NCBI GenBank assembly: GCA_021157815.1
Contig: JAGGVT010000100.1
Location: 1 to 18,943, forward strand
Reading direction: 5' to 3'
Length of the DNA: 18,943 bases
Source of the DNA: a bacterium
GTDB taxonomy: Bacteria > JAJVIF01 > JAGGVT01
Numbering within the stretch: the first letter of the stretch is position 1; every line of letters starts with the position of its first letter. This document shows positions 11,308 to 14,329 of this stretch, in pieces. The position numbers and the translations under genes were made by a program. A model generated the notes under the pieces. That model was not told the origin of the DNA. It made no database searches and saw only the letters and a program-made list of their open reading frames with translations.

Positions 11308-11961
11308 ATGGTAAAAAAGAACGATAACCGTGACTTTTCACAGATTCCAAGAGTGGTAATCAAGCGCTTGTTTAAATATCATTCTGCGCTTGAGAACCTT
11401 CTAAGCAAGGGAACCGTTAAAGTAAGCTCAAAAAGCTTAAGCGCCGATGTGCATGTCAAAGCGTCACAATTAAGAAAAGACCTTGCATATTGCGGTGAGT
11501 TTGGAACTCGTGGAAAGGGTTATGATGTCAAATATCTTAATGGCAAACTTGCGGAAATTCTTGGCCTTCATACTGAATGGAATTACATTCTTGCGGGATT
11601 CGGGCATGTCGGTCACGCGTTCGTTTGCTATGAGGGCATATTTCGAAAAGGATTCAATGTTAAAGGTATCTTTGATATTGATGAGAAAAAAATCGGCCAG
11701 GTTTTTCGCGGAATTGAAATATGTGATATCTCGAAGATGCCTGAAATTGTAAGAGAGCATAATGTTCAAATAGGCGTAATTACCGTGCCATTTGATAGCG
11801 GACAATCCGTTTGCGACAAGATGATTGAGGCTGGCATCACTGCAATTCTGAATTTCGCTCCAGTGCTTCTCAAACCCAAGAAATCAATTTTTATCGAACG
11901 AATTGATATTTCAAGGGAATTGGTTACCCTGAGCCACTACCTTTCACATCACAAAGAATAA
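11308..11961 (+). CDS. rex: Redox-sensing transcriptional repressor Rex
   Basis: Rex senses the NADH/NAD+ ratio and releases DNA when NADH rises, derepressing fermentation or respiration genes. The 217-residue protein has the N-terminal winged helix (IPRVVIKRLFKYHSALENLL, SQLRKDLAYCGEFGTRGKGY) and a Rossmann fold with GFGHVG at residues 97-102 and FDIDEKKIGQ after the second strand. The signatures ITVPFDSGQ and GITAILNFAPVLL near the C-terminus complete the call. AAGG seven bases before the ATG supports the start. A candidate Rex operator lies upstream at 11149. The TAA stop codon is duplicated as the apparent target site of a 357-bp element that follows directly. Confidence 0.96.
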   Translation: MVKKNDNRDFSQIPRVVIKRLFKYHSALENLLSKGTVKVSSKSLSADVHVKASQLRKDLAYCGEFGTRGKGYDVKYLNGKLAEILGLHTEWNYILAGFGHVGHAFVCYEGIFRKGFNVKGIFDIDEKKIGQVFRGIEICDISKMPEIVREHNVQIGVITVPFDSGQSVCDKMIEAGITAILNFAPVLLKPKKSIFIERIDISRELVTLSHYLSHHKE

Positions 11962-12103
11962 TACCAAATCCATATTGATGTTTAACATTTCGGGGCAAAT
12001 AACACAATCAAGTTGAACAACCAGTCATTCCCGCGAAAGCGGGAATCCATTTTTCTTTTATAGAAGAGCTGGGATCTCTCATTTTTAAATGGATTCCCGC
12101 TTT

Positions 12104-12232
12104 CGGGCTTGTTGAAAAAGCTTATTTTATCCCGAACCGTAGGGGCAGCCCTCTGTGGCTGCCCTGTATTTACAGCAAACCTAAAGGCAGGCACAGAGAC
12201 CTGCCCCTACATAATTATGTTTTTCAACAGTC
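12104..12232. mobile_element. Inner element inserted in the hairpin loop of the middle element
   Basis: TGTTGAAAAA (12110-12119) and TTTTTCAACA (12220-12229) are 10-bp inverted repeats near both ends. GCTTT precedes (12099-12103) and follows (12233-12237) it, a likely 5-bp target duplication. No coding content. Confidence 0.65.
12139..12210. repeat. Paired hairpin arms inside the inner element (possible fourth layer)
   Basis: GTAGGGGCAG (12139-12148) and CTGCCCCTAC (12201-12210) are inverted copies. Each arm also folds by itself: the left pairs GGGCAGCC with GGCTGCCC. The arms differ at three base-paired positions in ways that keep pairing when read in the same orientation. It may be a separate element or the body of the inner one. 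Confidence 0.5.
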
Positions 12233-12325
12233 GCTTTTGCGGGAATGACATAATTCTTTTCGCGGTAGTTAAGGGATTAGTTTGAAATCAAATGTTGGAT
12301 ATCAATCAGGATTTGGTATAAGAGC

Positions 12326-12430: not shown

Positions 12431-14329
12431 TTAAAGCAGGCCTTCAATTTTTTCAAGCGGCATTTCTTCAAGAAGAGTATCCTCAGGAAATTCATCCAGT
12501 TTGCCATCACTGAACTCATCAAGCATGCCTGTACCTGCTTCTTCGCGTGGTTCCTCATCGAGGTCGTAGTGTTCAATCGTTGCCCCTTCTTCCATACGCA
12601 GTGTTGTGACACGCATGGCTTCCTCGATTGTTGTAATGCCCTGTGTGACTTTTGCAAGCGCGGAAAGTTCCAGTGAACGCATTCCCTCCTTGATAGCCAT
12701 TTTTCTAATCTCGTCCGTTGAGGCATCCTGAAGAATGAGTTCCCTGACATTCGGAGTAACTTTCATCATTTCGAATATACCGGTTCGACCTTTGAATCCT
12801 GTGCCACGGCAGATTGTGCATCCTTTGCCCTTGAATAGCTTTGGCACAAAATCCGGGCCATAACCAAAGCGTTTTTGCATCATGGCTCGCATCTCATCGG
12901 TATATGGCACTGGTTCAATACATGTCGGGCAAATCTTTCGTACGAGCCGTTGCGCCATGATTCCGATTGTGGATGCGGCGACCAGGTAGTTCGGTGCGCC
13001 CATCTGAACCATTCGAACAACAGCGCTTGGTGCGTCATTGGTATGAAGAGTTGAGAACACAAGGTGGCCGGTTAGTGATGCCTCAATGGCCGCTTCAAGT
13101 GTTTCGTAGTCTCGAATCTCTCCAACCAGGATGATATCAGGGTCCTGCCTGAGGAACGATCTCAAAGCGGAGTTGAAGTCCATTCCCGCTTTACGGTTAA
13201 GCTCAACCTGGTTGATGCCTTTCAGCGTGTACTCAACGGGATCCTCAATTGTTATAATGTTTACCGTTGGGCTGTTCAAATGGTGCAATATGGAATACAG
13301 GGTTGTTGATTTGCCTGAACCGGTAGGACCGGTAACAAGGAAAACACCCCACGGTGATGCTGCCATATCGTAAATGAATTTTTCCTCGAAATCCTCAAGC
13401 CCAAGTTTTCCCAAGCCAACCATCGCGTTGGTCTTGTCCAGAATACGCATAACTATTTTCTCACCATGAACGGTGGGAAGACAGCTTACACGGAAGTCCA
13501 GTTCCCGTCCGGAAATCGTGGATGACATACGGCCGTCTTGCGGTTTACGTCTCTCCGCGATATCCATGCTCGACAGGATTTTGATACGGCTGACTGTTGG
13601 ATTCTGAATCTTGGGAGGAATTGAAAGTATCTTGTGGAGAATACCATCAATTCGATATCGAACAACAACTTCGTCATATGTAGGCTCAATATGAATATCA
13701 GAGGCGTTTGATTCCACAGCCTCGGAAATAATCGTGTTAACAAGACGTACAACAGGCCCGGCATCGATAGCTTCAAGGCCCTCAACCTTTAGCGCCTGGC
13801 TGATATCGACATCATCATCTTCCTCGTCGAGAGTTTTTAGATAATCGCTGATTAATTCGTCCGTCGCGTATTTCTTGCCGACCTTCTGGAAGATAATCTC
13901 TCTGATTTCATCCTCATGAGCAAGCATCGGCTCAATGCGCATCCCGCTTGCCAGCCTGAGATTCTCCTTCACGACAAAATCAAGCGGATCCGCCATGGCG
14001 ACATACAGCGTGTTGTCCTCAGCCTTGATTGGAAGAACCATAAACTTCGACATTAAATCAGGCTGAATGTATGCTTCAAGCGCTGATGTGTACGTATAAT
14101 CGGAAAGGGAAATGTATTTGATGCCCGTCTGTTTTTCCAACGCGAGGGCAATATCATTCTTCGAGCAGAAGCCAAGTTTGACAAGAACCTTACCCAGCTT
14201 TTCAGAAGAGCCTTTTTGGTACTCAAGTGCTTCACTTAGCTGTTGCTGAGTAATGACTCCCTGGTGAATGAGTATAATTCCCAGTTTGTCTTTCTGCCTG
14301 CTTGGCTTATCGTTGCTTGCTGCAACCAT
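12431..14329 (-). CDS. pilB: Type IV pilus assembly / type II secretion ATPase (PilB/GspE family) with tandem MshEN motif
   Basis: This hexameric cytoplasmic ATPase powers pilin or pseudopilin assembly. The 632-residue protein has an N-terminal MshEN region with two 24-residue motifs of the form [RK]LG-x2-hh-x2-G-hh-x4-L-x3-L-x2-Q at residues 15-38 and 44-67, separated by five residues, the known c-di-GMP-binding layout. The ATPase core has Walker A GPTGSGKST (334-342), Asp box TIEDPVEY (360-367), Walker B ILVGEIRD (400-407) and His box HLVFSTLHTND (422-432). A zinc-binding pair C467/C470 and C504/C507 is present. The C-terminal tail (about 589-632) is very acidic with LDEF repeated, not typical. 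It is a lone gene here, so pilus and secretion roles cannot be separated. AAGGATGG is 13 bases from the ATG, rather far. Confidence 0.93.
   Translation of the reverse strand: MVAASNDKPSRQKDKLGIILIHQGVITQQQLSEALEYQKGSSEKLGKVLVKLGFCSKNDIALALEKQTGIKYISLSDYTYTSALEAYIQPDLMSKFMVLPIKAEDNTLYVAMADPLDFVVKENLRLASGMRIEPMLAHEDEIREIIFQKVGKKYATDELISDYLKTLDEEDDDVDISQALKVEGLEAIDAGPVVRLVNTIISEAVESNASDIHIEPTYDEVVVRYRIDGILHKILSIPPKIQNPTVSRIKILSSMDIAERRKPQDGRMSSTISGRELDFRVSCLPTVHGEKIVMRILDKTNAMVGLGKLGLEDFEEKFIYDMAASPWGVFLVTGPTGSGKSTTLYSILHHLNSPTVNIITIEDPVEYTLKGINQVELNRKAGMDFNSALRSFLRQDPDIILVGEIRDYETLEAAIEASLTGHLVFSTLHTNDAPSAVVRMVQMGAPNYLVAASTIGIMAQRLVRKICPTCIEPVPYTDEMRAMMQKRFGYGPDFVPKLFKGKGCTICRGTGFKGRTGIFEMMKVTPNVRELILQDASTDEIRKMAIKEGMRSLELSALAKVTQGITTIEEAMRVTTLRMEEGATIEHYDLDEEPREEAGTGMLDEFSDGKLDEFPEDTLLEEMPLEKIEGLL

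Follow-up and report, generated by a model that had tools for sequence, protein, structure and literature searches.

IS1272 and TnSha1, two elements of the IS1182 family, target hairpins that differ in sequence, with no sequence preference; the stem-loop is deleted and no target duplication is left (PMC5678879, PMC4923244). For IS1272, Wan et al. also drew, as hypothetical pathway c, a route with joining 5' of both loops and duplication of the loop only. Insertion in REP palindromes is an established habit of insertion sequences, e.g., IS1397, ISKpn1, ISPpu9/10, and ISRm22, and has been described in families IS3, IS110, IS4, IS256, and IS5, not in IS1182 (PMC1525189). GTAG REPs and REPINs are GTAG-tagged hairpins in head-to-head pairs (PMC3733652, PMC3116915), while CGTC REPs and the neisserial dRS3 repeats carry ATTCCC-N8-GGGAAT in head-to-head dimers beginning (C)GTC (PMC3733652, PMC3898611).

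Here we analyzed a stack of nested inverted repeats that lies in the gap between rex and a convergent PilB/GspE-type ATPase gene in an uncultured bacterium (Table 1). The window, i.e., the whole stretch of DNA analyzed, is the 18,943-nt contig JAGGVT010000100.1 of assembly GCA_021157815.1, hereafter contig C211 of a 91%-complete genome of 3.2 Mb on 221 contigs, which was searched throughout. Overall, we consider it very likely that the stack consists of three gene-less mobile repeats, an outer element A, a middle element B, and an inner element C, and that C targets hairpin loops, the loop being duplicated on insertion. Chance does not account for the nested inverted repeats: the folding energy of the strand is -150.6 kcal/mol compared to -87.8 +/- 5.8 for shuffled sequences (z -10.8), the terminal motif of C (TGTTGAAAAA) has 315 exact matches genome-wide vs 9 for the reversed control, and the hairpin motif of B (CCCGCGAAAGCGGGAAT) occurs 47 times with ≤1 mismatch vs 0 in the control. 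All four inverted-repeat pairs named between 11962 and 12318 in the original prediction are present, with the ends of the TGTTGAAAAA pair (12110-12119/12220-12229) misplaced there by a few bases; its list of layers overlooked a perfect 19-nt pair at 12034-12052/12087-12105.

Table 1 Features of the nested stack and of its two neighboring genes in the window.
Feature	Coordinates	Strand	Remarks
Upstream gene, redox-sensing repressor Rex	11308..11961	+	Element A begins directly after the rex stop codon
Layer A, TIR element	11961-12319		Two complete copies in the genome
A, left terminal inverted repeat, ATACCAAATCC...	11961..11990	+	Same arms in second copy at C167
Layer B, head-to-head REP pair of CGTC/dRS3 type, ATTCCC-N8-GGGAAT	12024-12249		
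B, left part: first CGTC/dRS3-type REP hairpin (12024-12048), spacer, second hairpin to loop	12024..12105	+	Empty homologue L063
Target duplication, left copy CTTTCG	12100..12105	.	Loop TTTC + closing pair
Inner MITE C, IS1182-type ends GGCTTGTTGAAAAA ... TTTTTCAACAGTCG	12106..12233	+	
GTAG-type REP, first of head-to-head pair in C	12139..12164	+	
GTAG-type REP, second of head-to-head pair in C	12186..12210	-	
Target duplication, right copy CTTTTG	12234..12239	.	One mismatch
B, right remainder: loop copy CTTTTG + CGGGAATGAC	12234..12249	+	
A, right terminal inverted repeat	12290..12319	-	Pairs with left arm; second copy at C167
Convergent downstream gene, type IV pilus/type II secretion ATPase, PilB/GspE family	12431..14329	-	Match below equivalog cut-offs

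That perfect 19-nt pair reveals layer B, with its outer pair at 12024-12041/12232-12249 (18 nt, 94%), to be a double hairpin. It shares with CGTC REPs and dRS3 the ATTCCC-N8-GGGAAT hairpin, the high copy number (about 50 B-type hairpins genome-wide), and the head-to-head arrangement with (C)GTC at the start; window B lacks the first C of CGTC, which many other copies have. However, B sits in an unrelated uncultured lineage, and it is the landing site of a MITE, C, whereas dRS3 is that of a filamentous phage integrase (PMC3733652, PMC3898611). Two copies of B with the same spacer type as in the window have no insert (L062 and L063), and seven more empty head-to-head pairs have other spacers. 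In copies L013, L017, L028, L054, L061, and L063, a recurrent 20-bp insert, TTCTTTAGTCTGTCCTCAGA, interrupts the first hairpin arm at one and the same position.

Element C is 126-128 bp long, ends in GGGC-TGTTGAAAAA, and, as expected of a MITE, has many copies and no coding capacity, with no transposase gene inside. It is found without layer B on contigs C167, C35, C23, C11, C195, and C162, among other places. Its core, GTAGGGGC...GCCCCTAC, forms a pair of 25 nt (12139-12163/12186-12210, 88%) and resembles GTAG REPs and REPINs in being a head-to-head pair of GTAG-tagged hairpins, but differs from them in being locked between IS1182-type ends, with which it travels. This pair (GTAGGGGCAG...) had been read in the original prediction as a separate, later insertion at 12139-12210; since it occupies the identical place in every 120/121-bp copy of C, it is instead inherited cargo of C and not a fourth insertion at the window locus, i.e., it entered an ancestor of C elsewhere. 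Other TGTTGAAAAA TIR pairs have other cargo, either a single GTAG hairpin (L137, L140, and L134:575) or unrelated sequences of 180-443 bp. The genome contains nine Y1_Tnp (RAYT-like) transposase genes, the neighborhoods of which were also checked for CGTC REPs; GTAGGGG lies within 1.5 kb of three of the nine, with no clear flanking pair.

Outermost, layer A has arms of 30 nt at 83% identity. A second complete copy (C167:24215-24465) has 37-nt arms and encloses a different hairpin, GGAACGCGGACAGCCTTGTCCGCGTTC, with C in its loop, so that the genome holds two separate stacks of A, hairpin, and C. Both copies have TA at both ends. Its end motif, TACCAAATCC, is only weakly enriched genome-wide (15 sites vs 4 in the control) and forms paired arms of 30-37 nt at two places, the remainder being single sites, several of them probably due to chance; none of the 15 sites is associated with a transposase with A-type ends. 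We take A to resemble Correia/NEMIS-type MITEs, which presumably share with it TIRs of ~30 nt, TA-containing ends, and the lack of coding capacity, although A has only two complete copies and no transposase with matching ends was found in the genome.

Could B+C, or even the whole stack, be a single composite that is copied as a whole, with the nesting going back to one ancient event? For some copies, larger units must have been involved given their common flanks beyond B: copies L005, L009, L013, and L017, which carry C in their right arm, and copies L054, L055, and L057, which carry it in the opposite arm, lie in a larger repeat with ~60-100 bp in common on each side of B, an extra level of nesting outside the window. 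As a general rule this explanation is nevertheless unlikely, and for the 357-bp block it is refuted. The whole stack as a query yielded one full-length match in its own genome, the window itself, against ~60 partial matches, all layers occurring together in the window only. Elsewhere the layers come apart: C stands alone in at least three unrelated hairpins, B occurs empty, and B+C lacks A at many sites, where either arm of B can hold C. Separate nested families, as the original prediction had proposed in place of a unit always found as one block, are thus borne out by a genome-wide search for single layers, in which C was found alone, B empty, and A in a second complete copy.

The order of insertion, suggested to be outer first and inner last, is well supported for its inner step, as the target duplication CTTTCG/CTTTTG and the empty homologues of B both indicate that C came after B. 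For the outer step, we infer that B entered A from the containment of B and from the second copy of A with a different hairpin; no duplication was seen around B.

A different explanation would see in these palindromes a structure kept for a cellular role, as a bidirectional transcription end or an mRNA 3' stabilizer between rex and pilB, their transposon look being secondary. The convergent position of the genes, the very stable fold, and two terminator-like hairpins in the stack where 0.6 are expected would all be consistent with such a role. We nonetheless regard it as quite unlikely as an account of the stack, since dozens of unrelated loci carry these elements too, with loop-centered target duplications, and a role at this site would leave the nesting unexplained. 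A search among relatives yielded no orthologous rex-pilB locus, neither within the genus nor within the family (Rex ≤45% identical), and hence no empty site for comparison; layers B and C were absent from the class relatives searched, and the stack had no match in a plasmid collection. MicroRNA-like hairpin matches in Rfam, searched at a relaxed threshold, were all sub-threshold and were rejected.

Next, we evaluated the target choice of C from 59 TIR pairings at targeted loci, a few of which overlap and so represent somewhat fewer elements. Palindromic flank pairs were found for 34 of the 59, compared to 2.6% of random sites, and in 33 of the 59 the element ends bear a direct duplication of ≥5 bp with no mismatch. 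When the empty site was reconstructed by joining the flanks of C, a hairpin dyad lay exactly at the center of the duplication in 25 of these 33 cases, and a stem of ≥7 pairs was present at the duplication in 22 (vs 0.26% of random sites). However, 20 of the 33 duplications are those of one REP loop (CGAAAG/CTTTCG), several in copies with common flanks, so that independent insertions number fewer than 33. The duplications, 5-8 bp long and mostly 6-8 bp, with 6 bp predominating, consist of the loop and 1-2 closing pairs, i.e., C-GAAA-G, CA-GCCT-TG, CA-GGA-TG, and G-TAGC-C, in four unrelated hairpins with loops GAAA, GCCT, GGA, and TAGC, all of them dyad-centered; hairpin folds agree with these loop assignments, the first and third folded sequences being slightly idealized. 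Judging from these junctions, C inserts in hairpin loops. The preference for palindromic sites that the original prediction attributed to all layers in common was found for C only. DDE transposases normally produce duplications of a fixed length; here, the varied duplication length and the centering on loops of different sequence point to structure-directed joining. A minority of C copies (L097, L099, L166, and L168) have long palindromic flanks without duplication, which possibly reflects stem-loop replacement or a later deletion between a C copy in one arm of B and another in the opposite arm.

The same junction was also detected in other genomes. CCCGCGAAAGGGNNTGTTGAAAAA was found in seven stretches, six of them from Zixibacteria MAGs and one from a Sedimentisphaerales MAG, the left half being fixed by the search pattern and the right half constituting the independent observation. 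Where the far end was readable, it mostly displayed the same CGAAAG duplication (L185, L187, L188, L190, and L191), and L189 has palindromic flanks at the junction. All of these (L185-L191) are TGTTGAAAAA elements at the CGAAAG loop, with a cargo unlike that of window C and often itself palindromic. That the association of C with hairpins stems from recombination among palindromes or among copies of C, with no targeting by a transposase, is very improbable: chimeric flanks at L134:2485, L135, and L167 would fit it, as would the four copies without duplication, which can arise by deletion between C copies in both arms of B, yet recombination does not account for duplications that match the loop exactly in four unrelated families of hairpins, or for the reappearance of this junction in other phyla.

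A candidate source for the transposition of C lies in the same genome. On contig C90, a decayed IS1182-family gene is bounded by GGGGCTGTTGAAAAAGCCTATTAT and TTTCAACAGCCCC, and the first 24 nt of this relic are identical to the termini of some MITE copies, L005 among them, i.e., the terminal repeats of C are common to C and to an IS1182-family relic. The relic comprises pieces of NF033551, DUF772, and DDE_Tnp_1_6 with an internal deletion and a stop, and its protein, too decayed to reach the equivalog cut-off, has NF033551 as its best match (1.2e-32). A further relic, on contig C56, resembles it at the left end; only one end of this copy could be found. By its ends, C is therefore classified, from sequence, as an IS1182-type MITE. 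In the assembled, 91%-complete genome, the transposases with TGTTGAAAAA ends are relics only, none intact; C would have been mobilized in trans by an IS1182-family transposase. The search for matching transposases that the original prediction proposed thus recovered relics for C and none for A, and its description of the families as "active" was not supported. An IS1182-like protein on contig C155 (PF13751 match) was ruled out as the autonomous partner of C, as its ends are GGTACCGTTGCAAAA. This intact-looking 337-aa IS1182/IS5-like transposase (L164:676-1689), with exact GGTACCGTTGCAAAA inverted repeats and next to the contig end, belongs to a separate IS.

Taken together, these patterns suggest the following course of events. 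A, a small TIR element with TA-bounded ends, would have come to lie in the convergent intergenic gap, B, a CGTC/dRS3-type REP hairpin pair, would have entered A once A was in place, and C, with its GTAG-REP pair as fixed cargo, would then have landed in the second hairpin of B, at its loop. C was probably mobilized in trans by a hairpin-recognizing IS1182-family transposase, and the target hairpin was probably either single-stranded or part of an extruded cruciform. The transposase would join C to the target at either side of the loop, and repair would duplicate the loop with one or two closing pairs, so that the length of the duplication would follow the hairpin.

With IS1272 and TnSha1, C shares hairpin targets without a common sequence and, presumably, an IS1182-type transposase; unlike them, it is gene-less and carries REPs. 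Some C copies also resemble IS1272 in having palindromic flanks without duplication, as if the top of the hairpin had been replaced, but most readable copies (the 33 above) duplicate the loop and 1-2 closing pairs where IS1272 deletes the stem-loop. Compared to the REP-targeting insertion sequences, C is a single element that uses several unrelated hairpins. In a literature search that covered few subscription papers, no IS1182-type MITE with loop duplications was described. The C copies provide sequence evidence for a loop-duplicating route that was previously only a model for IS1272, and the stack offers a concrete route for the nesting of REPs, REPINs, and MITEs.

More tentatively, and with slightly less than even confidence, we suggest that C may belong to a widespread MITE type in uncultured phyla, moved by a shape-reading transposase that joins symmetrically around any hairpin loop, so that the hairpin and not the enzyme would set the duplication length. 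As the cargo is itself a REP hairpin, each new C copy would bring a new landing site, and Russian-doll palindromes could build up.

Several contigs start or stop inside such elements, and the nested repeats may explain assembly breaks at these sites. Finally, one C-type element (L144:395-686, i.e., C139:16894-17185) holds about five tandem 43-bp GTAG-REP units between TGTTGAAAAA ends.
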